From Pseudooceanicola endophyticus (lineage in GTDB: Bacteria; Pseudomonadota; Alphaproteobacteria; Rhodobacterales; Rhodobacteraceae), in the NCBI RefSeq assembly GCF_018760365.1, contig NZ_JAHIAB010000001.1, positions 575,813-639,812 of the forward strand: a DNA stretch of 64,000 nt, read 5' to 3'. The notes below the pieces were generated by a model. That model did no database searches and had not been told where the DNA came from. It saw nothing but the letters and a program-made list of their open reading frames with translations. The translations under genes were made by a program, and so were the position numbers. Numbering within the stretch: position 1 is the first letter of the stretch; each line of letters opens with the position of its first letter. Of this stretch, positions 16,303 to 53,047 are shown in pieces.

Positions 16303-16477
16303 GACGGGTCTCACCTTTCGTTTCTCTACGGGTCGCGCGCCGTCGGGCCCCGGCGCAACGCCCAATCGAGACAGGGGGTTCGGATCCATGCCTGGCCACC
16401 GTCCCAATGGTGACCTCCCGATCCGCGAACCTCGCCTTAGGCAGGACTTTCAGAAAAGCCCTCTCTGAGACAGGTTC

Positions 16478-37142: not shown

Positions 37143-39506
37143 CTACAGCCAGCCCAGGGCCCGGGCCGACTGGATGGCATCGCTGCGCCGGCGCACGCCC
37201 AGCTTGGCGTAAAGCCTTGAAAGGTGGAACTTCACCGTCGGCTCGGCAATGTGCAGCGTCTGGGCGATCCGCTTGTTCGGATAGCCCCCCGCGATCAGCT
37301 GCAACAGCTGGGCCTCGCGCTCGGTCAAGCCGCCGGCCCGCGCCTTCGCCCGCGGAGACGAGATCGAGCCGGCATAGATCGACAGCGTGGCGCGAATGTC
37401 GGGCGCCGTTTCCAGGTACTGGCGCATCCGCTTTTCACGCAGCAGCGGCGCCAGGAACAGGCGCTGTTCCGACAGCACCCCGAAACAGCCCAGCCTTGAG
37501 ACCGAGGTCAGCGCGGCCTCAAGGTGGCGCCGCGTCGCGCCGCTGTCGCGGCGCCGGTGCGCCAGATGGGCCCGCCAGATCTTCAGGGCGACCATCTCGC
37601 GCAGGGTGGTCCTGGCATTGCCTTCCAGCGCGGTGATCAGCCGGTCGATCGCGGGCCCCGGCGCGGGGTCCTCGACCATGCAGCGCAGCCGCGCCAGGGA
37701 CAGCGCGATATCGTCGCGCAGCCGCAGCTGCGCCAGATGCTCCGGCGTCATCGCCAGGGCGGCGCCCTCCAGCCCCTGAAGCATCAGCTCCGCCTCGGAA
37801 ATCCGCCCCTCGTTCTGGTAGGCGGTGGCGGTGCGGATCTGCACCGTTGCCAGCAGGTTCATCCGTTCCGCCAGATGCAGCCACAGCCCGTCGAGGAACC
37901 CGGGCCGAATGCTGGCGGGGTAGTGATCCATCACCGCCTGGGAACTGTACTGGATCGCGAAGTGGAACAGGCTGGGCCAGATCTCGGCGCGGGCGAAGGC
38001 ATCGAACTCCTGTTGCACGAAGGTCACCAGCTTCTGAGGCTGGCCGTTTTCATAGGCCAGCGCGGCCTCGACCAGATGCAGCATCCGGTATTCCTGCACC
38101 ACGGGATGGGTGACGCAGCCCAGCTTGTCGCGGGCGGTCTGCGCGGCGGTGCGAGCCAGGCGCGCATCGCCATTGGTCAGGTGCAGCACGGTCAGGTGCA
38201 GGTGGATGAAGAATTCCAGCAGGGGATGGCCGCCGATCTTGCGGAAATAGAGCAGCGCCCGGGCAGCGGCCGCCTCGGCCTCGCGGAAATTGCGGCGGCG
38301 GATCTCGAACTCCAGCAGGGCGTTGTAGAAGGCCGCCCATTTCTGCCCGTCGCCGACCGGGTAATCGGCCATGAACTCGCCCAGCCGCTGCAACATCGCA
38401 TCCGAGGGGGTCATGTCCTCGCTGATCATCATGTTCAGCCGGAACCGCCGCGCCGCGAAGGAGAACCGCGTGCCCCGCGCCAGCACCTTCAGCGGATCGA
38501 GGTAGTCGGACCCCAGGTGCTTGGCGGTCAGCTGGCGCACCCTTTGCAGCTCTCCCTGCTTCATCAGCGTGCGGGTGATGGCGAACAGCACCGTCTCGTT
38601 GGTGGCGATGATGTCCTGGGAAAAGCGCAGGATGGTGCGGCTGAAATCCTCAAGGTCGGAATCGTAGATCAGCTCCAGCCCGCGCGACTGGCTGAGGACC
38701 TGGGCGGCATGGGCCTCGTGGCCGTGATCCAGCAGCAGCTCCATCGCCGCAAGGGGCCGGTGCGCGGCCTCAAGCGCCTGGGCGACCTCGGTCACGGCGC
38801 CGGTGTCGGAAAAGCCCCGCAGCCGCGCGCGCACCGCCTGATGCAGCGCCGAAAGCAGCGCCGTGGGCGCGCCGGGTTCGGTGCACAGGCAAGGCGGCAG
38901 GGCATCGCACCAGTCTTCCTGCGGATCGGGCACCGGCGCCTCCAGCCAGAGCGAGAGCCGCGTCGTCGGCCCCGGCGACATCTGGCTGAGGAAGGTTTCC
39001 CCGATATAGGCCGCCAGCAGATCGGGATCGGGGTCCCGGGCCATCGGCAGGAAGGCCGGCCAGCCGGCATAGTCCTGCAACAGGCGCCGTTTCACCGCCG
39101 CCGGCAGGGCCGTGCCGATCTCTTCGGCGTCAAAGGCGAGGGCCGCGGCATCGAAGGTGTGCGCCCCGCCATGCAGAAGGCGCCGGGCCAGCCCGGTGAT
39201 CTTCTGCCCGGGCCGCTGGGCGATCACCAGATGGGTGACCGTCTCGGCCACATGGGCGGACAGCCGGGCGCTGCGCGCCGATCCCGGCACGTTCCAGAAC
39301 AGCCAGCCCGCCTGCACATCGCTGAGCCGGGGATGCTGGAGATCGCAGACGCTCACCCCCATCCGGGCGGCGGCGGCACGCATCAGGCAGGTCTTTCCGG
39401 CCCCGGCGGGGGCGCGCAGGAACACCGTGCCGCCCGGCGCGCCAAGCAGGCGGTCAAGCAGCGCGGGACGGGGCAGAAGGGTCTGGGCAGAGGGCGGCAG
39501 GGACAT
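37143..39506 (-). CDS. MalT-like ATPase transcriptional regulator (LuxR-type HTH)
   Basis: Encodes 787 residues. The N-terminus carries a P-loop APAGAGKT (32-39) in a STAND-type ATPase domain, the middle is helical and repeat-like (TPR-type), and the C-terminus ends in a LuxR/GerE helix-turn-helix (GLTEREAQLLQLIAGG, PNKRIAQTLHIAEPTVKFHL). This is the MalT architecture, in which an inducer and ATP drive oligomerisation on direct repeats. ATG 39506 is chosen over the preceding TTG. It is divergent from the ABC importer operon with 108 bp between them, so it most likely controls that operon. Confidence 0.88.
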   Translation of the reverse strand: MSLPPSAQTLLPRPALLDRLLGAPGGTVFLRAPAGAGKTCLMRAAAARMGVSVCDLQHPRLSDVQAGWLFWNVPGSARSARLSAHVAETVTHLVIAQRPGQKITGLARRLLHGGAHTFDAAALAFDAEEIGTALPAAVKRRLLQDYAGWPAFLPMARDPDPDLLAAYIGETFLSQMSPGPTTRLSLWLEAPVPDPQEDWCDALPPCLCTEPGAPTALLSALHQAVRARLRGFSDTGAVTEVAQALEAAHRPLAAMELLLDHGHEAHAAQVLSQSRGLELIYDSDLEDFSRTILRFSQDIIATNETVLFAITRTLMKQGELQRVRQLTAKHLGSDYLDPLKVLARGTRFSFAARRFRLNMMISEDMTPSDAMLQRLGEFMADYPVGDGQKWAAFYNALLEFEIRRRNFREAEAAAARALLYFRKIGGHPLLEFFIHLHLTVLHLTNGDARLARTAAQTARDKLGCVTHPVVQEYRMLHLVEAALAYENGQPQKLVTFVQQEFDAFARAEIWPSLFHFAIQYSSQAVMDHYPASIRPGFLDGLWLHLAERMNLLATVQIRTATAYQNEGRISEAELMLQGLEGAALAMTPEHLAQLRLRDDIALSLARLRCMVEDPAPGPAIDRLITALEGNARTTLREMVALKIWRAHLAHRRRDSGATRRHLEAALTSVSRLGCFGVLSEQRLFLAPLLREKRMRQYLETAPDIRATLSIYAGSISSPRAKARAGGLTEREAQLLQLIAGGYPNKRIAQTLHIAEPTVKFHLSRLYAKLGVRRRSDAIQSARALGWL

Positions 39507-39510
39507 CAAA

Positions 39511-39543
39511 AACCTATACCATTTTTTTCAAAACCCATACCAT
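39511..39543. promoter_or_regulatory. Direct-repeat operator candidate between regulator and ABC operon
   Basis: AACCTATACCAT (39511-39522) and AACCCATACCAT (39532-39543) match at 11 of 12 positions and start 21 bp apart, two helical turns. Direct repeats on one face of the helix are what MalT-type activators bind. A TTGTTT/AATAGT pair with 17-nt spacing downstream (39551-39579) could be the operon promoter. Confidence 0.5.
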
Positions 39544-39614
39544 CCGGAAATTGTTTGGCGCCCGGCGCTGCAGAATAGTCTCCGGAACGTGACCAACCCG
39601 GAGGTTTCCGGCTG

Positions 39615-40643
39615 ATGCAGCAAAATCCGTTCCTCGCGATTCTCACCCGGCTCGGCACCTTCGTGCTGGTCATGATCGTGCTTTCGATCATGATCTTCGT
39701 GCTGGCCCGGGTCGTGCCCGGCGACCCCGCGCGCATGGCGCTTGGCCCCACCGCCACCCCCGAGCAGGTCAGTGCCCTGCGCACCGAAATGGGCCTCGAT
39801 CTGCCGCTGCCGGTGCAATACCTCAGCTACATGGGCCGCGCCCTGCACGGGGATCTGGGCATGTCGCTGCTCTCGCAGCGCCCGGTGACCGCCGATCTGG
39901 CCCAGACCGTGCCTGCCACGGTCGAGCTGGTGCTGGCCGCCGTCATCATCATGTTCGCCATCGCCATTCCGCTGGGCGTGATGACCGCGCATTTCCGCGA
40001 CCTCTGGATCGACCACGTCGGCCGGCTGGTGTCGTTGGTGGGCGTGACCATCCCCAGCTTCCTCTTCGCGATCTCGCTTCAGCTGATCGCGGCGCGCTAT
40101 TTCGGCGACTGGCCGATCATCGGGCGGATGGATCACGGGCTGGGCTTTACCGGCGGACCCACCGGGCTGATGCTGGTCGACAGCCTGCTGGCCGGGCGCC
40201 TTGATGTCTTCCTGAGCGCGCTTCAGCACCTCGCGCTGCCGGCGATCGCGCTGTCGATGGCGGGCATCGGCCAGATCACCCGCATCACCCGCTCTGCCAT
40301 GCTGGAAAACCGCCGCAAGGACCATGTGCTGACCCTGCAAAGCTTCGGCGTGCCCGAGCGCGTGATCATCTTCCGCTACCTGCTCAAGCTGTCCTCCATT
40401 GCGCCGCTGACCATCATGGGGCTCGAGTTCGCCTCGCTGATCGGCAATGCCTTCGTGATCGAAATGGTCTTCTCCTGGGGCGGCTTCGCCTCCTACGGCC
40501 TGAACGCGATCCTCCAGAAGGACCTGAACGCGGTGACCGCCGTGGTGCTGGTCTCGGGGCTGTTCTTCATCGTCGCCAACCTGATCGTCGACATCCTGAT
40601 CTCGATCATCGACCCCCGCATGCGCCGAAAGGAGGCCCGCTGA
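39615..40643 (+). CDS. Peptide-type ABC transporter permease (DppB-like)
   Basis: Encodes 342 residues with about six transmembrane helices. The N-terminal pattern VLARVVPGDPARMALGPTAT and GLDLPLPVQYLSYMGRALHG are standard for DppB/OppB/GsiC permeases, and the coupling segment reads LQSFGVPERVIIFRYLL. GGAGG is 9 nt upstream of the ATG. It is the first gene of the operon and overlaps the second permease by one base. With that permease and the double ATPase it forms an inner-membrane importer for peptides or peptide-like compounds. Confidence 0.92.
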   Translation: MQQNPFLAILTRLGTFVLVMIVLSIMIFVLARVVPGDPARMALGPTATPEQVSALRTEMGLDLPLPVQYLSYMGRALHGDLGMSLLSQRPVTADLAQTVPATVELVLAAVIIMFAIAIPLGVMTAHFRDLWIDHVGRLVSLVGVTIPSFLFAISLQLIAARYFGDWPIIGRMDHGLGFTGGPTGLMLVDSLLAGRLDVFLSALQHLALPAIALSMAGIGQITRITRSAMLENRRKDHVLTLQSFGVPERVIIFRYLLKLSSIAPLTIMGLEFASLIGNAFVIEMVFSWGGFASYGLNAILQKDLNAVTAVVLVSGLFFIVANLIVDILISIIDPRMRRKEAR

Positions 40644-41527
40644 TGGCCCAGATCAAGATGGCCCTGGACGGCGCCGACAAGGACCTGAGCGCGGGCTACA
40701 TGATGTGGTACCGCTTCAGCCGGAACCCGGCGGCGGTGATTGGCACGCTGATCGTGCTGTCTGCGGTGATCTGCGCCCTGCTGGCGCCCTGGATCACGCC
40801 GCGCCCGCAGGACGTGGGCGCCGTGGTGAACTTCCGCGCCCGTCACCTGCCCCCCGATGCCCAGCACTGGTTCGGCACCGACAAGGTGGGCCGCGACATC
40901 TTCTCGCGCGCGATCTTCGGGCTGCGGATCTCACTGCTGCTGGTGATCGGCGTGCTGGGGATCTCCGTGCCGATCGGCACGGTGCTGGGGCTGGTCGCGG
41001 GCTATGCCGGCGGCTGGACCGAGCGGCTGATCACCGGGCTGACCAATGTCATGCTGGCCATGCCGCCGCTGGTGATGGCACTTGCCGTGTCGAACCTGCT
41101 GCAACCCACGCTGATGAACGCGATGATCGCGATCACCCTGCTGTGGTGGACCTGGCATGCCCGGCTGATCTACGCGGTGTCGAAATCCGTGGCCTCCGAG
41201 GATTACATCGAGGCCGCCCGCATCGCCGGCGCCGGGCCGCTGCACATCCTGTTCCGGGAAATCCTGCCGAACTGCATCTCGGTCATCTCGGTCAAGACGA
41301 CGCTGGATGCGGCCTTCGTGATCCTGTTCGGCGCAACGCTCAGCTTCCTCGGCTTCGGCGTGAAGCCCCCGACCCCGGACCTGGGCTCCATGGTGGCCGA
41401 CGGGCGCCAGTTCATGCCCGATTTCTGGTGGGAGGTCCTCTGCCCCGGCGCGGTGATCCTCTACGTCACCCTCGGCTTCAACCTGCTGGGCGACGGCCTG
41501 CGCGACATGTTCGATATGGAGGGCTGA
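40643..41527 (+). CDS. Peptide-type ABC transporter permease (DppC-like)
   Basis: Encodes 294 residues. The cytoplasmic N-terminus and first helix (VIGTLIVLSAVICALLAPWI) are followed by HWFGTDKVGRDIFSRAIFGL, a hallmark of DppC/OppC proteins. The coupling loop is AARIAGAGPLHILFREILPN. Start and stop of neighbouring genes touch (TGATG upstream, 1-nt gap downstream), indicating translational coupling. It pairs with the DppB-like permease. Confidence 0.92.
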   Translation: MAQIKMALDGADKDLSAGYMMWYRFSRNPAAVIGTLIVLSAVICALLAPWITPRPQDVGAVVNFRARHLPPDAQHWFGTDKVGRDIFSRAIFGLRISLLLVIGVLGISVPIGTVLGLVAGYAGGWTERLITGLTNVMLAMPPLVMALAVSNLLQPTLMNAMIAITLLWWTWHARLIYAVSKSVASEDYIEAARIAGAGPLHILFREILPNCISVISVKTTLDAAFVILFGATLSFLGFGVKPPTPDLGSMVADGRQFMPDFWWEVLCPGAVILYVTLGFNLLGDGLRDMFDMEG

Positions 41528-41528
41528 G

Positions 41529-43175
41529 ATGAGCGATCCGCTTCTGAAGGTCGAAGGCCTCGACGTTCTCTTCACCGCCTACGGCCAGACCCGCCAGGTG
41601 CTGCGCGACATCTCCTTCACGGTCGGTGCCGGTGAACGTGTCGCCCTGATCGGAGAGACCGGCTCTGGCAAGTCGGTCACCGCCAAGGCGATCCTGGGCA
41701 CCCTGCCCCGCAACGCCACCGTCAGCGCCGGCCGGATCGAGGTCGAGGGCCGCAACGTGCTGGATCTGCCGCGCAGCGCCCGCGACGCGCTGAAGGGCCA
41801 GGCGTTTTCGCTGATCATGCAGGACCCGCTGTCGTCCTTCAATCCGGTCTTCAAGATCGGCAGCCACCTGGATGACGTGCTGCGCTATGCCGACCGTCGC
41901 GCCGGGGTCCGCGCCAGCACGTCAGAGCGTCGCGCCCGCATCGCCGCCGTGCTGCGCCGCGTCCAGCTGGCCGATCCCGAGCGGGTGATGAACGCCTATC
42001 CCTCCGAACTGTCGGGGGGCATGCGCCAGCGCGTGCTGATCGGTCTGGCGCTGCTGCACCAGCCGAAACTGCTGATCGCGGACGAGCCGGGCACCGCGCT
42101 CGACGTCACCACCCAGGACGAGATCCTGAACCTGATCAACACCCTGGTCGCCGAAGAGGGCATGGCGCTGCTGATGATCACCCACAACCTTGGGGTCGTG
42201 CGCAAGGTCGCCGACCGCGTGGTGGTGATGCGCCACGGCGATATCGTCGAAACCGGCCCCTGCACCCAGATCCTCCATGCCCCCGCGCATGATTATACCA
42301 AGGGCCTGCTGGACGCCGTGCCACCGCTTTATGGCGCGCGCGTGCAGACCCAGGAGCTGAGCGAGAAGCCTGCCATCGTCAGCGCCAATGCGCTGTACAA
42401 GGAATTCGGCCGCGGAGCGCGCCGCTTCCAGGCGGTCAGGGACGTCACAGTCACCCTGCGAGAGGGCGAGATCTTCGGCCTTGCGGGGGAATCCGGGTCC
42501 GGCAAGACGACGGTGGCGCGGATGATGATGGGCCTCGCGCGGCCCACCACCGGCACCGTCACGGTCGAGGGCACGCCCAACCCGGGCCGCCCGCTGGCGC
42601 AGATCGTCTACCAGAACCCCGGCACCTCTCTGAACCCGAAACGGACGGTGAAGCAGAGCCTGTCGCTGCCGCTGAAACGTGCAGGCCTTGCGGGCGCTGC
42701 CCGCGACGCCCGCCTGGCCGAGCTGATGGGCCTTGTCCGCCTGCCGGTCTCCTATCTGGCGAAATACCCGCACGAGCTGTCGGGCGGGCAGAAGCAGCGC
42801 GTCGCCATCGCCCGCGCCCTGGCCGCCGATCCCAAGGTGCTGATCCTGGACGAGCCCACCGCCGCTCTGGACGTGTCGGTGCAGAAGACGGTGATCGAGC
42901 TGCTGCTGCAACTGCGCGCAGAGCTGGGCCTGACCTATTTCATGATCTCCCACGACCTGTCGCTGATGCGCAACTTCTGCTCGCGCCTCGCTATCATGCT
43001 GCGCGGAGAGATCGTCGAGGAAGGCCCCACGCCGCAGGTCTTCGCCGCCCCCCAACACCCCTATACCCGCGCGCTGATCGCCGCGATCCCGGTCGTCACC
43101 GATGCCGAGGAACGCCTGAAGCCCGCGGTCACCCCGGAAGAGCGTCAGGCCTTCCTGGTGACAACCACTGACTGA
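41529..43175 (+). CDS. Fused double ATP-binding ABC protein (DppD-DppF type)
   Basis: Encodes 548 residues with two complete nucleotide-binding domains in one chain. Domain 1: Walker A GETGSGKS (42-49), signature LSGGM (161-165), Walker B LLIADEP. Domain 2: Walker A GESGSGKT (320-327), signature LSGGQ, Walker B LILDEP. Both resemble peptide-importer ATPases, normally separate DppD and DppF; fusions like this are common in alphaproteobacteria (GsiA-like). It follows the DppC-like gene after one base and precedes the first hydantoinase-like gene by 12 nt. Confidence 0.94.
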   Translation: MSDPLLKVEGLDVLFTAYGQTRQVLRDISFTVGAGERVALIGETGSGKSVTAKAILGTLPRNATVSAGRIEVEGRNVLDLPRSARDALKGQAFSLIMQDPLSSFNPVFKIGSHLDDVLRYADRRAGVRASTSERRARIAAVLRRVQLADPERVMNAYPSELSGGMRQRVLIGLALLHQPKLLIADEPGTALDVTTQDEILNLINTLVAEEGMALLMITHNLGVVRKVADRVVVMRHGDIVETGPCTQILHAPAHDYTKGLLDAVPPLYGARVQTQELSEKPAIVSANALYKEFGRGARRFQAVRDVTVTLREGEIFGLAGESGSGKTTVARMMMGLARPTTGTVTVEGTPNPGRPLAQIVYQNPGTSLNPKRTVKQSLSLPLKRAGLAGAARDARLAELMGLVRLPVSYLAKYPHELSGGQKQRVAIARALAADPKVLILDEPTAALDVSVQKTVIELLLQLRAELGLTYFMISHDLSLMRNFCSRLAIMLRGEIVEEGPTPQVFAAPQHPYTRALIAAIPVVTDAEERLKPAVTPEERQAFLVTTTD

Positions 43176-43187
43176 AAGGACCCGCAG

Positions 43188-44762
43188 GTGTATCGCGTAG
43201 GAATTGACGTAGGCGGCACGAATACCGACGCCGTGGTGCTGCAGGGCAAGACCGTCCTGGCAGGGATCAAGGCTTCGACCACCGAGGACGTGACCTCGGG
43301 CGTGTTCGACGCGCTGGAACAGGTCATCGCGGCCTCGGGCATCGACCGGGCCCGCATCGGCGCCGTGATGATCGGCACCACCCATTTCACCAATGCGGTG
43401 ATCGAACGGCGCCACCTGGACCCGGTTGCGGCGATCCGGCTGGGCCTGCCCGCCGGCGCCGGCCTGCCGCCGATGGTCGACTGGCCCGAGGACATCCGTG
43501 CCATCGTCGGCAACCACGGCTATCAGGTGAAGGGCGGCTACGAATTCGACGGCCGCATCCTGTCGCCCCTCGACGAAGACGAAATCCGCCGCATCGCCGC
43601 CGAGATCCGCGCGAAGGGCATCCGTGCCGCCGCCGTCACCTGCATCTTCTCGGGCGTCAACGACGCGATGGAGCTGCGCACCCGCGAGATCCTGCAGGAG
43701 GAATGCCCGGAGCTGTCCGTCGTGCTGTCGCGCGACATCGGTCGCCATGGCCTGCTGGCGCGCGAAAGTGCCGCGATCATGAACGCCTCGCTGCTGCGGC
43801 TGGCCGACAAGACCGTGCAGGCCTTTGGCCATGCGCTGCAACAGGCGGGCGTCACCGCGCCCTTCTACATCACCCAGAACGACGGCACGCTGATGGCCGC
43901 CGACACGGTGCGCGCCTTCCCGGTGCTGACCTTTGCCTCCGGCCCCACCAACTCCATGCGCGGCGCCGCCTTCCTGACGGGCCTGGCCGAGGCCATCGTG
44001 GTCGATGTGGGCGGCACCACCTCGGATGTGGGCGCGCTCTCGCACGGGTTCCCGCGCCAGGCCTCGACCTCGGTCGACATTGGCGGCGTTCGCACCAACT
44101 TCCGCATGCCCGATGTCTTCTCGATCGGGCTGGGCGGCGGATCGCTGGTGCAGGGCAGCCCCGAGGCGCTGACCATCGGCCCGCAATCCGTGGGCTACCG
44201 TGTCCGCCAGGAGGCGCTGGTCTTTGGCGGCCAGACCCTGACCACCACCGATATCGCGGTCGCGACCGGCAAGGCCGAGATCGGCGACAAGGCCCTGCTG
44301 GCCGGGCTTTCGCCCGAGCTGGTGAGCGCCGCCGCCGCCAAGATCGAACAGATGTTCGAAGCCTGCGTCGAGCGCGCCCGCATCTCGGCCGAGCCGGTGC
44401 CGGTGATCGCGGTCGGCGGCGGCTCGGTGCTGATGCCCGACCGGATCGGTGACCTGCAGGTCATCCGCCCCGAGAACTTTGCCGTCGCCAATGCCGTCGG
44501 CGCCGCCATCGCCCAGGTCTCGGGCGAGACGGACCGGATCTTCAGCCTGACCGACGGGGTGACCCGCGACAGCGCCCTGGCCGAAGCCGAGGCCGAGGCC
44601 CGCGCCCAGGCCATCGCCGCCGGCGCGCTGGAAGAGACGCTCGAGGTGATCGAACGCGAAGACATGCCGCTGGCGTATCTGCCCGGCAACGCCACCCGCA
44701 TCCACGTCAAGGTCGTGGGCGAAATGGGGGCCCTTGCAGAAATGGAAGTCCAGAATGCCTGA
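43188..44762 (+). CDS. Hydantoinase/oxoprolinase-family protein, paralog 1
   Basis: Encodes 524 residues and starts with GTG (43188) after AAAGGA. The N-terminal ASKHA-type phosphate loop GIDVGGTNTDAV (5-16) and later FASGPTNSMRG and VVDVGGTTSDVG define the HyuA/oxoprolinase A-subunit family, which uses ATP to open hydantoin or 5-oxoproline-like rings. No HyuB-type partner is present; instead it overlaps a DUF917 gene by 8 nt. Fungal and some bacterial proteins fuse these two modules, as I recall, so the pair probably acts as one enzyme. Substrate unknown. Confidence 0.85.
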   Translation: MYRVGIDVGGTNTDAVVLQGKTVLAGIKASTTEDVTSGVFDALEQVIAASGIDRARIGAVMIGTTHFTNAVIERRHLDPVAAIRLGLPAGAGLPPMVDWPEDIRAIVGNHGYQVKGGYEFDGRILSPLDEDEIRRIAAEIRAKGIRAAAVTCIFSGVNDAMELRTREILQEECPELSVVLSRDIGRHGLLARESAAIMNASLLRLADKTVQAFGHALQQAGVTAPFYITQNDGTLMAADTVRAFPVLTFASGPTNSMRGAAFLTGLAEAIVVDVGGTTSDVGALSHGFPRQASTSVDIGGVRTNFRMPDVFSIGLGGGSLVQGSPEALTIGPQSVGYRVRQEALVFGGQTLTTTDIAVATGKAEIGDKALLAGLSPELVSAAAAKIEQMFEACVERARISAEPVPVIAVGGGSVLMPDRIGDLQVIRPENFAVANAVGAAIAQVSGETDRIFSLTDGVTRDSALAEAEAEARAQAIAAGALEETLEVIEREDMPLAYLPGNATRIHVKVVGEMGALAEMEVQNA

Positions 44763-45885
44763 AGCCCGTGAACTGAGCTACGATCCCGCCGACCTGTGGG
44801 AACTGACGCCGGAGGATCTGGAGGCGCTGGAAGTGGGCGCCGGGATCCTCGGCACCGGGGGCGGCGGCAACCCCTACCAGGGCAAGCTCTTGACCCGCGA
44901 GGTGATGCGGGCCGGTCACAAGATGACGATCCTTGCGACCGACAAGATCGCCGACGAGGCGCTGTGCATGTCGATCGGCGGCATCGGCGCGCCGGTGGTG
45001 GGCACCGAACGCATCCGCGAGGGCCGCGAGGGCTATCGCTGCCTTCAGGGCATGGAAGAGCTGACGGGCCGCAAGATGGACGCCATCGTCTGCGAGGAGA
45101 TCGGCGGCGCCAACTCCATGAACCCGCTGGTGACGGCGGCGCTTGGCGGGCTGCCGGTGCTGGATTGCGACGGCATGGGCCGCGCCTTCCCCGAGATGCA
45201 GATGACCACCTTCTCGATCTACGGTCACAGCTCCACCCCCTCGGTGATGTGCGACCTGCATGGCAACCGCGTGGTGTTCCAGCACGCCGTGTCGGAAGTG
45301 TTCCACGAACGCATGGCGCGGGCCTGCGTGGTCAGCCAGGGCGGGGCCGCGATGCTGGCCACCGCGCCGATGCAGGCCAGCTTCGTGCGCCAGAACGCGA
45401 TCCCCTCCAGCTACACCCAGGCGATCCGTCTGGGCCGTGCGGTGCTGGATGCGCGCCGCAACGGTGACGATCCGGTCGCCACGGTCTGCGCGCTGGAAAA
45501 CGGGCGTCATGTCTTCACCGGCAAGGTCACCGACCTCAAGCGGCACCTGCGCGGCGGCTTCGCCGTGGGCGAGCTGGAGCTGGCGGGCTTCGATGCCTTC
45601 CAGGGCGAGACCGCCGGCATCGACATCCAGAACGAATTCCTGATCTTCCGCCGCGACGGCCAGGTCGAGGTGACGGTGCCCGACCTGATCATCGTGCTCG
45701 ATGTCGACACCGGCTACCCGATCACCACCGAGATGCTGCGCTACGGCCAGCGCATCGCGGTGCTGGCGGTGCCCTGCCACGACCTGCTGCGCAGCGCCCG
45801 GGCGCTCGCCGTCGTCGGCCCCGCCGCCTTCGGCTATGCCGAGATCCCCTTCACGCCCCTGCCCCGCCCGGGTCAGGCCGCCTGA
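44755..45885 (+). CDS. DUF917 (S-Me-THD family) protein, paralog 1
   Basis: Encodes 376 residues from the ATG at 44755, which overlaps the preceding stop by 8 nt and has GGAAG upstream; an ATG 7 codons earlier is possible. The glycine-rich start ILGTGGGGNPYQG, EEIGGANSMNP and DCDGMGRAFPEMQMT are family signatures. From memory, this Pfam family was renamed after S-methyl-thiohydantoin desulfurase of ergothioneine-related catabolism, where it acts on a hydantoin-type ring. No transmembrane segment is visible. It is paired with hydantoinase paralog 1. Confidence 0.82.
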   Translation: MPEARELSYDPADLWELTPEDLEALEVGAGILGTGGGGNPYQGKLLTREVMRAGHKMTILATDKIADEALCMSIGGIGAPVVGTERIREGREGYRCLQGMEELTGRKMDAIVCEEIGGANSMNPLVTAALGGLPVLDCDGMGRAFPEMQMTTFSIYGHSSTPSVMCDLHGNRVVFQHAVSEVFHERMARACVVSQGGAAMLATAPMQASFVRQNAIPSSYTQAIRLGRAVLDARRNGDDPVATVCALENGRHVFTGKVTDLKRHLRGGFAVGELELAGFDAFQGETAGIDIQNEFLIFRRDGQVEVTVPDLIIVLDVDTGYPITTEMLRYGQRIAVLAVPCHDLLRSARALAVVGPAAFGYAEIPFTPLPRPGQAA

Positions 45886-45912
45886 GCATAAAAGACCAAC
45901 AGGAGAAAACAG

Positions 45913-47502
45913 ATGACCTTCCCCTCCAAGACGTTCGGGCTTTCCGCCCTTGCCCTTGCGGCGGCCTTCGGGCTGGCCGCGCCGGCCGCCCAGGCCCAGG
46001 ACCCGGTGTCGACCGTCGTCAACACCATGCAGATCTTCAGCTCGCTCGATCCGGCGAAGGTCACCGACTACACCGGCTACATGGCCGTGGTGAACATGTA
46101 TGACGGCCTGACCACCGTCGCCCCCTCCGGCCAGATCGTGCCGCACCTCGCCAAGTCCTGGGAAATCTCGGACGACGGGCTGACCTATACCTTCCACCTG
46201 CGCGATGACGTGAAGTTCCAGGACGGCACGCCGCTGACCTCGGCCGATGCCGTCTGGTCGATCCAGCGCCTGATCAAGATCAACAAGGGCCCGTCGAACC
46301 TGCTTGTCGGCCTGATCAAGCCCGAGAACGTCACCGCCCCCGACGCCACCACCGTCGTCATCAAGCTGGACCGCCCGTTCTCGCCCTTCCTGGCCTCCAC
46401 CCCGATCCTGATGGTGCTGAACAAGTCCCTGATCGAGGCCAACGCGACCACCGACGATCCCCTGGGCGAAGCCTATGTGGGCGAGCATTCCTCGGGCTCG
46501 GGCCCCTATGCGCTGGTCAGCTACAACCGCTCTGCCGACATGGTGATCAAGCGCAACCCGGACTACTTCCTGGGCTGGGACAAGGGCACGCCGATCGACG
46601 AAGTGCGCTTCGTGCAGACCTCGGATGACGCGACCGTGCGCGCGCTGGCCGAAAAGGGCGAACTGGGCCTGTCGTCCCACGGCCTGGGCAACGACACCTT
46701 CGAGGCGATCTCGAAGATGCCGGGCTACAAGCTGATCCAGACCCGCACCGCCGGCGGTTTCCAGATCAAGCTGAACACCAAGGTCTATCCGACCGACGAC
46801 ATCCATGTCCGCCGCGCCATCGCCTATGCGACCGACTACGACACGATCCAGCAGATCATCTACCCGGGCGTCGCCATGCACGGGCCGCTGTCGGACACCT
46901 TCAAGGATGCCTTCAACACCGACATCCCGGCAGGCGAATACAACCTCGAGAAAGCCAAGGAAGAGCTGGCGAAATCCAAATACGCCGGCCAGAAGATCAC
47001 GCTGGTCAACAGCTACGTCGCCTCGCTGGCCTTCGAGCAGGAAGTGGCGCTGCTGATGCAGGCCAACCTGGAGCAGATCGGCATCACGCTGGACATCCGC
47101 CCCGAGCCCTGGAACCGCATCGTCGAGCTGTCCTCCAAGCCCGACACCACCCCGGCCTCGACCCAGGTGAACGTCAGCCCCAGCTATCCTTCGCCGGATT
47201 CGATGTTCTTCAACCAGTACCACTCCAAGGCCTCCGGGACCTGGTGGTCGATGGAATGGCTGCAGGACCCCGAGATCGACGCCCTGATCGACAAGTCGCG
47301 CGCCCAGACGGACCCGACCGAGATCAACGCGACCTACAAGGACCTGCAACAGAAGCTCTATGACCTGCAGCCCGATGTCTGGGCCGTGGCCCCGATGCGT
47401 CGCTACGCGGCCAACGCCTGCCTACAGGGCTATGAGTTCATCCCGATGCAGAGCTGGGATCTGAACTTCTGGAACTTCACCTGGGACTGCCCGGCCAAGT
47501 GA
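45913..47502 (+). CDS. ABC transporter periplasmic binding protein (peptide/SBP_bac_5 family)
   Basis: Encodes 529 residues. A signal peptide ends at AAQA (residue 28-29 region), followed by a mature family-5 solute-binding protein with HLAKSWEISDDGLTYTFHLR and DVKFQDGTPLTSADAVWSI, the family motif. It binds the ligand for the DppBC-like permeases encoded upstream. It sits between the two enzyme pairs. A 10- to 12-bp hairpin immediately follows the gene and probably stabilises its transcript. Confidence 0.94.
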   Translation: MTFPSKTFGLSALALAAAFGLAAPAAQAQDPVSTVVNTMQIFSSLDPAKVTDYTGYMAVVNMYDGLTTVAPSGQIVPHLAKSWEISDDGLTYTFHLRDDVKFQDGTPLTSADAVWSIQRLIKINKGPSNLLVGLIKPENVTAPDATTVVIKLDRPFSPFLASTPILMVLNKSLIEANATTDDPLGEAYVGEHSSGSGPYALVSYNRSADMVIKRNPDYFLGWDKGTPIDEVRFVQTSDDATVRALAEKGELGLSSHGLGNDTFEAISKMPGYKLIQTRTAGGFQIKLNTKVYPTDDIHVRRAIAYATDYDTIQQIIYPGVAMHGPLSDTFKDAFNTDIPAGEYNLEKAKEELAKSKYAGQKITLVNSYVASLAFEQEVALLMQANLEQIGITLDIRPEPWNRIVELSSKPDTTPASTQVNVSPSYPSPDSMFFNQYHSKASGTWWSMEWLQDPEIDALIDKSRAQTDPTEINATYKDLQQKLYDLQPDVWAVAPMRRYAANACLQGYEFIPMQSWDLNFWNFTWDCPAK

Positions 47503-47524
47503 TCGGCGCCCGCTTCTGAAACAG

Positions 47525-47549
47525 GCCGGTCCCGCGTCGCGGGGCCGGC
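47525..47549 (+). other. Hairpin after the binding-protein gene
   Basis: GCCGGTCCCGCG pairs with CGCGGGGCCGGC (one G-U) and has no U-tract. It is 22 nt past the stop and inside the operon, typical of 3' stabilising structures that raise binding-protein expression over that of neighbours. Confidence 0.55.
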
Positions 47550-47572
47550 ACCGAAAGACCCAAGGTGGACAG

Positions 47573-48649
47573 ATGCTCCAGGAATTTCCGGAAGAGAATA
47601 TCGAATCCCTCGCAACCGGCGCGTGGATTCTGGGAACGGGCGGCGGTGGCAACCCCTACCTGTCAACGCTGAACCTGCGCCGGCTTTATGCCGATGGCGC
47701 AAGGGTGCAGGTGATGCAGCCCGAGGACCTGGCCGATGACGACATGGTCGCCGTGGTCTCCGGCATGGGCGCGCCGCTGGTCGGGCAGGAACGCCTGAAG
47801 GACCCGGCCCACATGGCCCGCGCGGTCGAGCTGATGGAAGATTACCTGGGCCGTCCGTTCCGCGCCATCATGGCGCTGGAAATCGGCGGGGCCAATGCGC
47901 TCTCGCCCTTCCTGGCCGCCGCGCTGCTGGGCCGCCCGGTGGTCAATGCCGATTGCATGGGCCGCGCCTACCCGGAGGCGCAGATGACCTCCTTCGCGAT
48001 CGGCGGGCTGTCGATGTTCCCGCTCTCTCTGGTGGATGTGCGCGACAACGAGGTGATCGTTGCCCGCGCCGAAAGCTGGAAATGGATGGAGAAGATCTCG
48101 CGTTCGGTCTGCACCGCCGTGGGGTCCACCGCCGCGACCTGCAAGGCGCCGCGCACGGGGCGCGAGGTGAAGGACTGGGGCATTCACAACACCATCACCC
48201 AGGCGACCGACCTGGGCCGCGTGGTGCTGGAAGCCCGTGCCCGCCACGCCGATCCCGTTGCCGCCGTGCTGGCGCACGCGAAGGGTCAGCAGGTCTTCCG
48301 TGGCAAGGTCGTGGACGTCGACCGCACCACGACGGGCGGCTTCCTGCGGGGCCGCACCGTGATCGAGGGCATCGACGCCGACCGTGGCGCGACGCTGGAA
48401 CTGGCGTTCCAGAACGAATGGGCCGTCGCCTTCCGCAACGGCGAACCCGTCGCCATGACCCCGGACCTGATCTGCCTGCTCGACAGCGTGTCGGGCAGCG
48501 CCATCGGCACCGAGGCCGTGCGCTATGGCCAGCGCGTCAGCGTCATCGCCCTGCCCGCCCCCGAGATCCTGACCACGCCCGCGGGCGTGGCCGCCGTGGG
48601 CCCGCGCGCTTTCGGCTATGACATTGACTTCAAATCGGTATTCCAATGA
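47573..48649 (+). CDS. DUF917 (S-Me-THD family) protein, paralog 2
   Basis: Encodes 358 residues similar to paralog 1: ILGTGGGGNPYLS, LEIGGANALSP, NADCMGRAYPEAQMT, and near the end RYGQRVSVIALPAPEIL versus RYGQRIAVLAVPCHDLL. It lacks the N-terminal extension of about 20 residues seen in paralog 1. It precedes and overlaps hydantoinase paralog 2 by four bases (ATGA), so gene order here is DUF917 then hydantoinase, the reverse of the first pair. Soluble and presumably cytoplasmic; probably a different ring substrate or a different step. Confidence 0.82.
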   Translation: MLQEFPEENIESLATGAWILGTGGGGNPYLSTLNLRRLYADGARVQVMQPEDLADDDMVAVVSGMGAPLVGQERLKDPAHMARAVELMEDYLGRPFRAIMALEIGGANALSPFLAAALLGRPVVNADCMGRAYPEAQMTSFAIGGLSMFPLSLVDVRDNEVIVARAESWKWMEKISRSVCTAVGSTAATCKAPRTGREVKDWGIHNTITQATDLGRVVLEARARHADPVAAVLAHAKGQQVFRGKVVDVDRTTTGGFLRGRTVIEGIDADRGATLELAFQNEWAVAFRNGEPVAMTPDLICLLDSVSGSAIGTEAVRYGQRVSVIALPAPEILTTPAGVAAVGPRAFGYDIDFKSVFQ

Positions 48650-50184
48650 AGCGTATTGGCATTGACGTTGGCGGCACCAATACGGATGCCGTGCTGATCG
48701 ACGGCGACAGCATCATCGCCTCGATCAAGGTTCCCACCACCCAGGACGTGATGTCGGGCGTGAAGGCCGCGCTGGCCCATGTCGCCGCCCATATCGGCGA
48801 CAGCCCGCGCCGCCTTGATGCGGTGATGATCGGCACCACCCATTTCACCAATGCGGTGGTCGAACGCGCCCGGCTGGAGCGCGTCGCCGCGATCCGCATC
48901 GCCCTGCCCACCGGCGCCTCGCTGCCGCCGATGTGCGACTGGCCCGAGGATCTGTATCGCGCCGTCGATCCGATGATCTTCATGGTCCATGGCGGCCATG
49001 AATACGATGGCAGCCCGCTGGTGCCGCTGCGCGAGGACGAGATCCGCGAAGCCGCGATGAAGATCCGCGATGCCGGCATCACCTCGGTCGCGATCTCGGC
49101 CACCTTCTCTCCGCTGACCACCGAATGCGAGGACCGCGCCGCCGAGATCGTCCGCCAGATCCTGCCCGAGGCGCGCATCACCCTGTCGCATACCCTGGGC
49201 CGTATCGGCCTGCTGGAGCGTGAGAACGTCGCCCTGCTGAACGCCGCGCTGCAATCGCTGGGGCGCACCACCGTGCAGGCCTTCAAGACCGCCCTCGCCG
49301 AGGTCGGCCTGAACGTGCCCTTCTTCCTGACCCAGAACGACGGCACCGTGGCGCTGGCCGATGTGGCCGCCGCCAATCCGGTGTTCAGCTTTGCCTCCGG
49401 CCCCACCAATTCGATGCGCGGCGCGGCCTTCCTGACCGGGCTGACAGACGCCATGGTCGTCGATGTGGGCGGCACCACCTCGGATATCGGCTGTCTGGTG
49501 GGGGGCTTCCCGCGCGAGGCGAACAACGTCGTCCATATCGGCGGCGTGCGCACCCTGTTCCGGATGCCCGACCTGCTGCCCATCGCCCTTGGCGGCGGCA
49601 CCGTGGTCGATCCTGAAACCGGCGCCATCGGGCCGCGCTCGGTCGGCTACCGCATCCTTCAGGAGGCCCGCGTTTTCGGCGGCCAGACCCTGACCACCTC
49701 CGACATCGCGGTCGCCGCCGGGATGATCGAGATGGGCGATCCCGAGAAGGTCCGCGATCTGGATCCGGCCTTCGTGCAGGCGACGCTGGCGACGATGCGC
49801 GCCATGGTGGCCGAGAACTTCGACCAGATGAAGACCTCGGCCGAGGACGTGCCGCTGATCGCGGTGGGCGGCGGGGCCTTCCTGATCCCTGACCAGGTAC
49901 CCGGCGCCTCCGAGGTGCTGCGGGTGGAAAACGCGGGCGTCGCCAATGCGCTTGGCGCGGCCATGGCACAGGTCTCGGGCGAGGTCGATCAGGTCTTCTC
50001 GGACATGTCGCGCGAGGCCGCGCTGGCCGAGGCCGAGGCGCAGGCGCGTGCCGCTGCTATTGCCTCGGGGGCCGCGTCGGATAGCCTGAAGGTGCTGGAG
50101 GTCGAGGACATTCCCATCGCCTACCTGCCCGGCGGCGCGCGTCGCGTGCGTGTCCGGGTGATCGGTGATATCCATTTTGACTGA
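48646..50184 (+). CDS. Hydantoinase/oxoprolinase-family protein, paralog 2
   Basis: Encodes 512 residues. GIDVGGTNTDAVLIDG at the start, IGTTHFTNAV, LTQNDGTVALAD, FASGPTNSMRG and VVDVGGTTSDIG parallel paralog 1. Divergence is spread along the length, so this is an old duplication, not a recent copy. It is translationally coupled to DUF917 paralog 2. No HyuB homologue occurs anywhere in the operon. A strong hairpin follows the gene. Confidence 0.85.
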   Translation: MKRIGIDVGGTNTDAVLIDGDSIIASIKVPTTQDVMSGVKAALAHVAAHIGDSPRRLDAVMIGTTHFTNAVVERARLERVAAIRIALPTGASLPPMCDWPEDLYRAVDPMIFMVHGGHEYDGSPLVPLREDEIREAAMKIRDAGITSVAISATFSPLTTECEDRAAEIVRQILPEARITLSHTLGRIGLLERENVALLNAALQSLGRTTVQAFKTALAEVGLNVPFFLTQNDGTVALADVAAANPVFSFASGPTNSMRGAAFLTGLTDAMVVDVGGTTSDIGCLVGGFPREANNVVHIGGVRTLFRMPDLLPIALGGGTVVDPETGAIGPRSVGYRILQEARVFGGQTLTTSDIAVAAGMIEMGDPEKVRDLDPAFVQATLATMRAMVAENFDQMKTSAEDVPLIAVGGGAFLIPDQVPGASEVLRVENAGVANALGAAMAQVSGEVDQVFSDMSREAALAEAEAQARAAAIASGAASDSLKVLEVEDIPIAYLPGGARRVRVRVIGDIHFD

Positions 50185-50189
50185 AGACA

Positions 50190-50216
50190 GAAACGTCCCG
50201 ACCCCCGGGGCGTTTC
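50190..50216 (+). terminator. Terminator-like hairpin after hydantoinase paralog 2
   Basis: GAAACGUCCCG pairs with CGGGGCGUUUC (11 bp, one G-U) around a 5-nt loop, with UUUC closing the 3' arm. It lies 5 nt past the stop and 23 nt before the asparaginase gene, so it may only partially terminate. Confidence 0.5.
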
Positions 50217-50238
50217 CGCGTGACGACAGGAAACCAAG

Positions 50239-51195
50239 ATGACGATTGCACTTGCGATTCACGGTGGTTGCGGCGTTCTGCCCCTCGACAGCATGAGCGC
50301 CGAAGACTGGGCCGAAGCCCGGCAGGATCTGGGCCGTTCCCTTGCGGCGGGCTGGGCGGTTCTAAAGGCGGGCGGCAGCGCCGTCGATGCGGTCGAGGCC
50401 GCCGTCGTCGTCATGGAGGACAGCGCGCATTTCAACGCCGGTCACGGCGCCGCGCTGAACGAGAACGGCGAGCACGAGCTTGACGCCTCGATCATGGACG
50501 GCGCCACGCTTGAGGCCGGTGCGGTCAGCGCCGCGCGCGGCATCCGCAACCCGGTGCGCGCCGCCCATGCGCTGATGAAGGACGGTCGCGCGGTCTTCCT
50601 GACCGGCGCCGCCGCCGATGCCTTTGCCGAAAGCGCCGGTCTGCCGGTGATGGAACAGGGCTATTTCACCACCGCCAAGCGGATCGAGGCGCTGGCCGCG
50701 ATGAAGGCCCATGCCGCCGCCGGGACCGAGGCGACCGAGAACGAAAAGCACGGCACCGTCGGCGCCGTGGCGCTGGATCAGGCCGGGCACCTGGCCGCCG
50801 CGACCTCGACCGGGGGCTATACCAACAAGCCCGCGGGCCGCGTCGGTGACAGCCCGGTGATCGGGGCGGGCACCTATGCCCGCGATGGCGTCTGCGCGGT
50901 CTCGGGCACCGGCAAGGGCGAATTCTTCATCCGCCACGTGGTTGGTCACGAGATCGCCGCCCGCATCGCCTATCTGGGCGAAACTCTGCCCCAGGCCGCC
51001 GAACATGTCGTGCATGTCGATTTGGCGGGCTCTTCACAGACCACCGGGATCATCGGCGCCGGGCTGGTGGCGATCGATGCCACGGGTCAGGTCAGCGCCC
51101 CCTTCAACACCGCCGGCATGTTCCGCGGCTGGGTCACGCCCGAGGGCCGCGCCTTCGTCGCCACCCATGCCGAGATCCACGAGGTGGCGCTGTGA
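50239..51195 (+). CDS. Plant-type L-asparaginase / isoaspartyl peptidase
   Basis: Encodes 318 residues of the Ntn-hydrolase asparaginase-2 family. The self-cleavage site is HG|TVGAVALD with catalytic Thr173. FNAGHGAALNENGEHELDAS, then IMDG, and the substrate loop GRVGDSPVIGAGTYA are conserved. The precursor would split into alpha and beta chains and hydrolyse L-asparagine or beta-aspartyl (isoaspartyl) dipeptides. There is no signal peptide, so it is cytoplasmic. It overlaps the dipeptidase gene by 4 nt, and together they suggest that beta-aspartyl peptides, or amides made by the ring-opening steps, are intermediates. Confidence 0.9.
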   Translation: MTIALAIHGGCGVLPLDSMSAEDWAEARQDLGRSLAAGWAVLKAGGSAVDAVEAAVVVMEDSAHFNAGHGAALNENGEHELDASIMDGATLEAGAVSAARGIRNPVRAAHALMKDGRAVFLTGAAADAFAESAGLPVMEQGYFTTAKRIEALAAMKAHAAAGTEATENEKHGTVGAVALDQAGHLAAATSTGGYTNKPAGRVGDSPVIGAGTYARDGVCAVSGTGKGEFFIRHVVGHEIAARIAYLGETLPQAAEHVVHVDLAGSSQTTGIIGAGLVAIDATGQVSAPFNTAGMFRGWVTPEGRAFVATHAEIHEVAL

Positions 51196-52223
51196 GCCCG
51201 CAGATCCCCGTCTTCGACGGCCACAACGACGTCCTGTCGAAACTCCTGCACCAGCGCGACGGCGCCGAGCACCGCTTCCTGACCGGCGCGCCGGGAATGC
51301 AGATCGACCTGCCGCGCGCCCAGGCCGCAGGCTTTGCCGGGGGGCTTTGCGCGATCTGGGTCAGCACCGAGGACACGACGCTGGATGCCAATGGCGACCT
51401 GCCGCCGGTGCCGCAGGCTTCGGCGCTGGAGCAGACCATCGCGCAAGCCGCGCTGCTGCAACGTATCGTGCGCCGCTCTGATGGCGCCGTCGCGCTGTGC
51501 CGCAGCGCCGCCGAGATCCGCGCCGCCATGGCCGAGGGACGCTTTGCCGCCGTCTTCCACATCGAGGGGATCGAGGCCGCGACCCGCGATCTGGATCTGC
51601 TGCACGTACTGCACGCAGCCGGTCTGCGCACCCTCGGCCCGGTCTGGAGCCGCCCGAACCAATTCGCTCATGGCGTGCCCTTCGTGATGAACCATGGCCC
51701 CGATTTCGGCCCCGGCCTTTCCGATGCGGGCCGCGATCTGGTCCGGCTCTGCAACGAGCTGCGCATCATGATCGACCTGTCGCACATGAACGAGGCCGGC
51801 TTCTGGGACATCGCCAAGCTCTCGGATGCGCCGCTGGTCGCCTCGCATTCCAATGCCTTCGCGATCTGCCCGCACAGCCGCAATGCCACCGACCGCCAGC
51901 TGGATGCGATCCGCGACACCGGCGGTCTGATCGGGCTGAACTTCGGCGTCCGCTTCCTGCACCCCGAGGGGATCCGCGATCCCGACATGGGGATGGAGGT
52001 CATGGTGCGCCATATCGACTATCTGGTCGAACGGGTCGGCATCGACCACGTCGCGCTCGGCTCGGATTTCGACGGCACCTTCATGTCGCGACAAATGCAG
52101 GACGTCTCGGGCGTGCAGCTGCTGCTGGAGGCGCTGCGTCAGGCCGGCTACGACGAGGCCGAGCTGACCAAGATCGCCCATGGCAACTGGATCGCCACGC
52201 TGGAGCGCAGCTGGGGCGGCTGA
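51192..52223 (+). CDS. Membrane dipeptidase family (M19) peptidase
   Basis: Encodes 343 residues and starts with GTG (51192), overlapping the asparaginase stop as GTGA. The zinc ligands His11 and Asp13 (FDGHNDVL), bridging Glu125 (FHIEGIEA), and histidines in DLSHMNEAGFWD and VASHSNAF match the renal-dipeptidase family. Like most bacterial members it lacks a signal peptide. It cleaves dipeptides, often with D-residues or unusual bonds. It is the last gene of the operon, followed by a stem-loop. Confidence 0.9.
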   Translation: MSPQIPVFDGHNDVLSKLLHQRDGAEHRFLTGAPGMQIDLPRAQAAGFAGGLCAIWVSTEDTTLDANGDLPPVPQASALEQTIAQAALLQRIVRRSDGAVALCRSAAEIRAAMAEGRFAAVFHIEGIEAATRDLDLLHVLHAAGLRTLGPVWSRPNQFAHGVPFVMNHGPDFGPGLSDAGRDLVRLCNELRIMIDLSHMNEAGFWDIAKLSDAPLVASHSNAFAICPHSRNATDRQLDAIRDTGGLIGLNFGVRFLHPEGIRDPDMGMEVMVRHIDYLVERVGIDHVALGSDFDGTFMSRQMQDVSGVQLLLEALRQAGYDEAELTKIAHGNWIATLERSWGG

Positions 52224-52369: not shown

Positions 52370-53047
52370 ATGGACACCAACGACAAGACCGCCATCCAGA
52401 CCCTGTTCGACAAGCTTGCCGAGGTGGAGCGCCGCTTCCCCGCCCGTGACGGCGAGGCAGAGCGTTTCATTTCAGAGCAGGCCGCGCGCCATCCCGGTGC
52501 GCTTTATTACCTGGCCCAGACCGTGATCACCCAGGAACATGCGCTGAAGCTGGCCGAAGAAAAGCTGCGCCAGGCCGAGGCCGACCTGGCCGCCGCCCGC
52601 CAGTCCGACAATCGCGGCACCGGCTCCTTCCTGTCCGGCCTGTTCGGGGCCGGCCCGCGCGAAGAGCCCGCGCCGCGCAGCTACGGCGCCGTGCCTTCGG
52701 TGCCGCGCGGCGGGGCCGCACCGGCTGCCGCCCCCGCGGCCACCGGTTGGCAGCAGCAACCCCAGCAGGCCCCGCAGCAGCGCAGCTTCCTGGGCGGCGC
52801 CGCGCAGACCGCGCTTGGCGTCGCCGGCGGCGTGATGCTGGGCGAGGTCGTCGGCAGCATGTTCGGCCACCATGGCGGGCTGGGCGGCTTCGGCGGACCC
52901 GAGGAAGTCATCGTCGAACGCGAGGAGATCCTTCAGGATCCCACGGGCGCAGCCGCCAACCAGGCTCCGCAATTCGACAATACCGGTTTCGACAGCACCG
53001 GCTTCGATGACGCCGGCGGCTTCGACGACAGCGACGACTGGACCTGA
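52370..53047 (+). CDS. DUF2076 domain-containing protein
   Basis: Encodes 225 residues. The N-terminal half (DKTAIQTLFDKLAEVERRFP...LKLAEEKLRQAEADLAAAR) is a helical domain ending in a coiled coil, as in DUF2076. A Pro/Ala/Gln-rich linker, a Gly-rich segment (TALGVAGGVMLGEVVGSMFG) and an acidic tail with GFDS/GFDD repeats follow. GAAGGAGAG precedes the ATG. No enzymatic residues are evident; members are thought of as periplasmic or membrane-associated ligands, but the function is unknown. Convergent with the methyltransferase gene after 16 nt. Confidence 0.83.
   Translation: MDTNDKTAIQTLFDKLAEVERRFPARDGEAERFISEQAARHPGALYYLAQTVITQEHALKLAEEKLRQAEADLAAARQSDNRGTGSFLSGLFGAGPREEPAPRSYGAVPSVPRGGAAPAAAPAATGWQQQPQQAPQQRSFLGGAAQTALGVAGGVMLGEVVGSMFGHHGGLGGFGGPEEVIVEREEILQDPTGAAANQAPQFDNTGFDSTGFDDAGGFDDSDDWT

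Follow-up and report, generated by a model that had tools for sequence, protein, structure and literature searches.

What kind of compound might a bacterium import and dismantle with a peptide transporter, two HyuA-like proteins, two DUF917 proteins and two peptidases encoded side by side? The question is raised by an operon of Pseudooceanicola endophyticus (contig NZ_JAHIAB010000001.1, positions 575,813 to 639,812; this whole stretch of 64,000 nucleotides is called the window below, and positions are counted within it), in which ten genes run in one direction from 39615 to 52223. An earlier note on this DNA had described a tightly spaced ten-gene operon with these families and several overlaps, and this is confirmed, all ten genes being open frames that match their named families in Pfam and NCBIfam. 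At about even odds (roughly 0.5), we read the operon as encoding a peptide importer and two ring-opening hydrolases, each of two subunits and dependent on adenosine triphosphate (ATP), whose product is cleaved by the peptidases where these are present. The observations behind this reading are the gene content, the synteny, the presence of DUF917 without HyuB next to a short HyuA, the co-inheritance of the pairs, and the intact phosphate motifs and peptidase residues.

The firmest new point concerns DUF917 and short HyuA, which behave like partners. The operon holds two pairs on the plus strand, HyuA1 (43188..44762, 524 amino acids, GTG start) with the S-Me-THD-like DUF917-1 (44755..45885, 376 amino acids), and DUF917-2 (47573..48649, 358 amino acids) with HyuA2 (48646..50184, 512 amino acids). 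Both HyuA match Hydant_A_N and part of Hydantoinase_A and are 56% identical to each other, while both DUF917 match PF06032 and PF20906 (183-232 bits versus a cut-off of 27) and share 41% identity. The best start for DUF917-1 is 44755, which gives the 376-residue form of the protein database, and its 8-nucleotide overlap with HyuA1 is also present in an annotated plasmid of Alloyangia pacifica. Seven Hydantoinase_A matches were found in the genome, five in frames of 698-765 amino acids and two in frames of 518-528; both short frames sit in the operon, alongside the only two DUF917 genes of the genome. Each of the five HyuB in the genome lies about 0.6 kb from a long HyuA, and no HyuB was found at the operon, all five matches being on other contigs.

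The partnership is also visible in trees of 33 DUF917 and 25 HyuA sequences, each with one outgroup, which share a deep split and place neighbouring genes in matching clades in 24 of 24 pairs. Clade 1 comprises HyuA1/DUF917-1 and the pairs of type II loci (described below), R. johnstonii, Listeria, L116, L082 and L128b (L numbers denote individual loci), and clade 2 comprises HyuA2/DUF917-2 and the pairs of Ketogulonicigenium, L110, L111, Neorhizobium, L118-L121 and L128a. Support in the HyuA tree is 1.0 for clade 1 and 0.86 for clade 2, and DUF917 clade 2 has a support of 0.996. Over the 24 pairs, HyuA and DUF917 distances are correlated (r 0.845, equalled in none of 5000 permutations). The existence of two pair clades implies that the operon joins two old pair lineages. 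Both kinds also occur together in L128, in a different order and near a monooxygenase and a flavin reductase, a sign that they can cooperate outside this operon too.

What might such a pair do? The phosphate 1 motif DxGGTxTD is present in all eight short HyuA in which it could be read (a ninth, from L054, was called too short) and the phosphate 2 motif DxGGT in nine out of nine, the window pair included in both counts. Both these motifs are named in a study of caprolactamase, according to which ATP-driven lactam opening requires the HyuA phosphate motifs together with the metal site of the partner (PMC8453981). The structural model of HyuA1 (predicted local distance difference test, pLDDT, 74.5) has as its nearest chains N-methylhydantoinase, acetone and acetophenone carboxylase and caprolactamase. 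That of DUF917-1 (pLDDT 90.5) has a single strong PDB match, 2o3i, the sole solved DUF917 relative found, which carries no assigned function. The DUF917 family is large, with 6316 of 8000 scored candidates matching DUF917-1 at E 1e-10 or better, and according to a 2024 paper its members had not been experimentally characterized (PMC11055893), although NCBIfam calls two DUF917 equivalogs (S-methyl-)thiohydantoin desulfurases.

In the mechanism that we propose, an ATP-driven importer of the Dpp type would bring in a small cyclic peptide-like compound, and its ring would be opened in the cytoplasm by the two two-subunit hydrolases. The short HyuA, a kinase-like protein of the ASKHA fold, would use ATP to activate a ring carbonyl, and DUF917, in place of the usual HyuB, would direct water onto the activated carbon and open the ring. 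Each pair would form a complex acting by phosphorylation then hydrolysis. The isoaspartyl peptidase and the M19 dipeptidase, where present, would cut the opened, Asp-containing, dipeptide-like product.

How far does this arrangement extend? Genomes were scanned with DUF917-1, one per species, and the best 80 of 125 loci were kept; order counts for these 80 are by tblastn, Rhizobium and Agrobacterium are over-represented, and genes in relatives were called by a simple codon-usage script in which the strand is occasionally wrong. The entire nine-gene core, from the regulator to HyuA2, recurs in window order at 50 of the 80 loci (type I), with the regulator divergent in every one of them. Type I genera include Alloyangia, Salipiger, Acidimangrovimonas, Rhizobium, Agrobacterium and Neorhizobium, and synteny extends past the window's own group to Rhizobium, Agrobacterium, Ensifer, Nitratireductor and Kaistia, among others. 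This repetition of gene order places the operon above chance, with the proviso that the loci were themselves retrieved by DUF917-1 and are therefore uninformative on its frequency. A second arrangement, type II, in which a single HyuA followed by two DUF917 stands between the importer and the solute-binding protein (SBP), was found at 27 of the 80 loci (L054-L059, L061-L081), 26 of them with a regulator match. The remaining three are L021 (at a contig end), L034 (without the second pair) and L082 (with a different importer). Genes flanking the core and the two peptidases are shared by close relatives only. What had been proposed as a complete import-and-dismantle pathway is therefore supported as an import-and-dismantle operon of conserved synteny, and the search of relatives for the same gene set returned the nine-gene core, but ten genes are not a fixed set, since the peptidases are not constant companions.

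Of 200 genomes sampled from the phylum, six, the window's own among them, have a PF06032 match above cut-off, and short HyuA (49-72% to HyuA1) occur in 11 of the 148 other genomes in a sample of 149 from the window's family. Among the 12 places where they occur, about three of which duplicate loci of the first scan, seven have type II order (L098-L100, L102, L106-L108), three (L097, L101, L103) are ordered SBP, permeases, split ATPases, HyuA, DUF917, and two (L104, L105) show neither order. At L097 (8184-17015), genes for OCD, GMC oxidoreductase, MaoC, HpcH/HpaI and an M81 peptidase of MlrC type come after HyuA-DUF917 and the importer. On a Shinella contig (L046:2309-13835), HyuA1 and DUF917-2 are short and the calls for DppB and the regulator are each split in two, which reflects either decay or sequencing frameshifts.

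The two peptidases that end the operon are accessory to the nine-gene core. The first is a plant-type asparaginase or isoaspartyl peptidase (50239..51195, plus strand; PF01112, 299.9 bits) and the only Asparaginase_2 match in the genome; it falls short of the E. coli beta-aspartyl-peptidase equivalog NF007589 (237.3 bits, cut-off 567). Its T173, presumably the autoprocessing threonine, aligns with the start of the beta subunit in solved relatives, and T191, R201, D204 and T224, which we take to be the partner residues, are present as well; all five are invariant across 36 rows. The M19 dipeptidase (51192..52223, plus strand, GTG start; PF01244, 326.8 bits) matches 3fdg/3ly0 at about 344 bits and retains H11 and D13 (H11xD13), E125, H198, H219 and D292, presumably its metal ligands. 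The isoaspartyl peptidase gene follows HyuA2 immediately in 36 of the 50 type I loci, 4-131 nucleotides away, an M19 gene lies within the next two genes in 14, and both are found in window order in 11. Peptidase distances track those of HyuA2, with r 0.70 over 36 rows and r 0.94 over 15 rows, window included, and neither value was reached in 2000 permutations.

In the family sample, 5 of the other 148 genomes have relatives of the isoaspartyl peptidase (E 1e-20). Among 199 Rhizobiaceae genomes it was found (E 1e-40) in 5 of the 7 with an H2-like HyuA (at least 69%) versus 15 of the 192 without (Fisher p 1.2e-4), a test in which the 69% line was set after the list had been viewed and kinship is ignored, and in which the gene is adjacent in only one of the seven. 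Stretches were fetched from six of these seven genomes (all but G529). Those of G254 and G345 (L109 and L117) are type I, whereas L118-L121 carry a DUF917-2/HyuA2-type pair without HyuA1/DUF917-1 in the stretches fetched. An M19 gene (59%) lies near a DUF917-2/HyuA2 pair again in L120, and a gene of the M19 family near a HyuA1/DUF917-1-type pair in L082. Elsewhere, homologues of the isoaspartyl peptidase stand behind an SBP and next to Dpp-type importer genes (L116, L122, L126), in L116 about 12 kb from a HyuA-DUF917-DUF917 module. A creatininase-family gene clusters with the peptidase and a Dpp-type importer in L122:2994-7121, L126:3947-8039 and L123:6860-8605, and the peptidase gene of L065, immediately ahead of a type II operon, overlaps a gene of the polysaccharide-deacetylase family, the solved relatives of which are a polysaccharide deacetylase (162 bits), the PuuE allantoinase (79 bits) and, at 97 bits, a peptidoglycan deacetylase. 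No ring hydrolase was found among the genes inspected in L124, L125 and L127. The isoaspartyl peptidase thus tends to accompany Dpp-type importers and sometimes possible ring-amide hydrolases of unrelated families, which is suggestive, not proof.

The importer is encoded, all on the plus strand, by a DppB-like permease (39615..40643; BPD_transp_1, 118 bits), a DppC-like permease (40643..41527; BPD_transp_1 and OppC_N), a GsiA/YejF-like fused double ATPase DppD-DppF (41529..43175; two ABC_tran matches, two Walker A and two LSGG motifs) and an SBP of the SBP_bac_5 family (45913..47502; 262.7 bits). The fused ATPase and the SBP miss the equivalog cut-offs for GsiA (425 bits versus 1077) and GsiB (114.5 versus 594). 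The SBP has a signal-peptide-like N-terminus and the enzymes of the operon, judged by eye, have no such start, so that the compound would be taken up intact. The closest solved relative of the SBP is AgaA (6hlx, 122 bits), the ligand of which we take to be agropinic acid, a pyroglutamate-type lactam; agropinic acid as the substrate was demoted to a rival because AgaA leads the next solved SBP by only about 11 bits. The divergent regulator gene (37143..39509, minus strand, 788 amino acids; GerE, 62.9 bits) had been called MalT-like, and its divergence stands, but likeness to MalT is confined to the C-terminal LuxR helix-turn-helix (NF003420, 62.2 bits versus a cut-off of 537). The operon start had been put at 39511, which lies in the divergent intergenic stretch, the first gene beginning at 39615. 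Intergenic distances within the operon run from -8 to +70 nucleotides (DppB/DppC -1, DppC/DppDF +1, DppDF/HyuA1 +12, HyuA1/DUF917-1 -8, DUF917-1/SBP +27, SBP/DUF917-2 +70, DUF917-2/HyuA2 -4, HyuA2/peptidase +54, peptidase/M19 -4).

Which ring would be opened? Among the genes that accompany distant HyuA-DUF917 modules are racemases, AroM, AroM-LuxR regulators, importers of polyamine or peptide type and a cytosine permease, and PMC11055893 describes DUF917 as enriched in cyclodipeptide-oxidase clusters that also contain dipeptide ATP-binding cassette (ABC) transporters and peptidases. Together with the peptidases of the operon, this suggests that the substrates are cyclic amides derived from peptides or amino acids, differing perhaps among modules, and for this operon a cyclic Asp-derived peptide or imide is weakly suggested as the best fit. 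A bolder and, on balance, unlikely version would have an undescribed class of ATP-dependent ring-opening amidases, with DUF917 for HyuB, in which two anciently separate enzymes act in turn on an imported cyclic Asp-derived dipeptide or imide and yield an isoaspartyl dipeptide for both peptidases, forming a route devoted to peptide debris of cyclic or succinimide type.

Several observations weigh against the import and ring-opening reading. The support of DUF917 clade 1 is only 0.28, so that its unity leans on the distant root, and at L112 no HyuA was found near DUF917. No His or Cys is invariant in aligned DUF917, which excludes a HyuB-like Asp-His-Asp-His metal site. The adenosine motif GxxPGP is absent from all nine short HyuA checked; among full-length HyuA, PGP is present in five of five readable sequences and the strict motif in four of them (two frames of this genome were left out, being on the wrong strand). 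This deviation, and the acetone and acetophenone carboxylases among the HyuA relatives, would suit an ATP-dependent carboxylase or other ligase-like activity instead of a ring hydrolase, but by Pfam none of the ten genes encodes a partner subunit of a carboxylase and distant modules neighbour racemases, AroM and peptidases, which makes such an activity highly improbable. The peptidases are also less regular than the proposed route would have it. Neither is present in 11 of the 50 type I loci, and in type II loci M19 matches number 0/27 and isoaspartyl peptidase matches 2/27, one adjacent (L065) and one about 6 kb away on the opposite strand (L081). Only one of the seven isoaspartyl peptidases of at least 67% identity in the 199 Rhizobiaceae genomes lies beside HyuA2, and of the four others fetched, three stand behind the SBP of another importer. 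For both the creatininase-family gene mentioned above (67 bits to a creatinine amidohydrolase) and the putative deacetylase of L065, the assignment goes no further than the family. The peptidases might therefore be passengers of a pathway made up of the importer and two HyuA-DUF917 pairs, with a substrate that need not be peptide-like, as the presence of the isoaspartyl peptidase in other importer units (L116, L122, L126 and E. coli iaaA-gsiABCD) would suggest. We consider this unlikely in view of the position of the isoaspartyl peptidase right after HyuA2 in most type I loci, its co-inheritance, the Rhizobiaceae association with its limits, and the recurrence of M19 in L120 and L082.

Two further rivals concern the substrate. 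HyuA-DUF917 might open hydantoins or thiohydantoins to N-carbamoyl amino acids: in PMC11055893, DUF917 proteins are suggested, from sequence and structure comparisons and without a test, to be hydantoinases yielding N-carbamoyl products, which likewise counts against the cyclic-peptide route. Distant modules with Asp/Glu/hydantoin racemases (L086, L088, L111), one of them (L088) with an annotated N-carbamoyl-beta-alanine amidohydrolase about 3.5 kb away, and the names S-Me-THD-like (Pfam) and (S-methyl-)thiohydantoin desulfurase (the two NCBIfam equivalogs) fit the same idea. However, the window's DUF917 proteins match both models, S-methyl-thiohydantoin desulfurase at 121.9 and 120.6 bits (cut-off 450) and thiohydantoin desulfurase at 116.8 and 90.5 bits (cut-off 440), leaving the thiohydantoin reading of the earlier note weak. 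That both cut-offs are missed by more than 300 bits and that Pfam finds no carbamoylase among the ten genes speaks against a pathway for plain hydantoins or thiohydantoins; there is no racemase among them by Pfam either, the importer is of peptide type, and we hold this rival to be improbable. A simple lactam (5-oxoproline, a gamma-glutamyl compound or an opine lactam), opened by pairs acting as 5-oxoprolinase-like lactamases, would accord with AgaA being the SBP's closest solved relative, with the 425 bits of the fused ATPase to GsiA, and with a Ti plasmid, pTi1D132 (L083:5732-13332), in which HyuA and HyuB lie by an asparaginase, a peptide-type SBP and flavin adenine dinucleotide (FAD) oxidoreductases and perhaps serve an opine lactam. 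The narrow lead of AgaA, the classical HyuA+HyuB and unrelated asparaginase family (PF00710) of the Ti cluster, and the five HyuAB pairs already held by the genome speak against it, and its probability is low.

How does the operon, read as an importer with two ring-opening hydrolases, compare with known systems? With the HyuAB lactamases (5-oxoprolinase, N-methylhydantoinase, CapAB) it shares a kinase-like HyuA with DxGGTxTD, DxGGT and a conserved lysine in a two-gene unit, but HyuA is about 690 amino acids long there and about 505-525 here, where GxxPGP is missing, and DUF917, not a HyuB metal subunit, stands beside it. The desulfurases NF058532 and NF058529 differ in the scores given above (90-122 bits versus 440-450) and in that each DUF917 of the window adjoins a short HyuA. 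The pairing of importer and isoaspartyl peptidase is known from E. coli iaaA-gsiABCD, in which the peptidase, one long ATPase (presumably a fused double ATPase), a periplasmic binding protein and two permeases form one run; HyuA, DUF917 and M19 are absent there, and the window proteins reach neither the GsiA equivalog cut-off nor that of the E. coli peptidase. According to PMC11055893, cyclodipeptide-oxidase clusters without a cyclodipeptide synthase (CDPS) have DUF917, dipeptide ABC transporters and peptidases in common with the operon, the ten genes of which include no cyclodipeptide oxidase (no match to CDOA, PF00881, or CDOB, PF19585, at E 0.001), racemase or AroM. No paper on the operon or on its combination of gene families was found in the open-access literature, in agreement with the claim that the system is undescribed. 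With DUF917 found in HyuB's place beside a distinct short HyuA, a vaguely annotated family becomes a candidate two-subunit enzyme open to testing, for which the importer and peptidases focus candidate substrates on cyclic amides of peptide origin.

Some distant modules have features of their own. An AroM domain fused to a LuxR helix-turn-helix, apparently a racemase-like fold serving as a sensor, lies near HyuA-DUF917 in L082:5325-6272, L084:12928-13842, L118:6304-7194, L119:10617-11564 and L128:6352-7224. A luciferase-like monooxygenase and a flavin reductase stand directly ahead of HyuA1/DUF917-1-type genes in L128:3526-11998, a cluster that also has a DUF917-2/HyuA2-type pair, and in L082:5325-12174, where the monooxygenase is close to the nitrilotriacetate monooxygenase family. 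L082 belongs to Chelativorans multitrophicus, which we take to be a degrader of ethylenediaminetetraacetate (EDTA); an EDTA or ketopiperazine substrate was rejected, as this monooxygenase scores 251 bits to EDTA monooxygenase 5dqp versus 401 for the best chain and the SBP of L082 best matches a dipeptide-binding protein. An MR_MLE gene by the M19 gene and DUF917-2/HyuA2 pair of L120 was considered as a dipeptide epimerase and set aside, its best PDB relatives being a galactonate dehydratase and putative mandelate racemases. In the window itself, a DUF2076 gene (52370-53047, plus strand) begins 146 bp beyond the operon end, and a Rhodo-rpoB RNA (RF03074, 74.9 bits) at 16334-16424 on the minus strand fits an origin in the Rhodobacterales.

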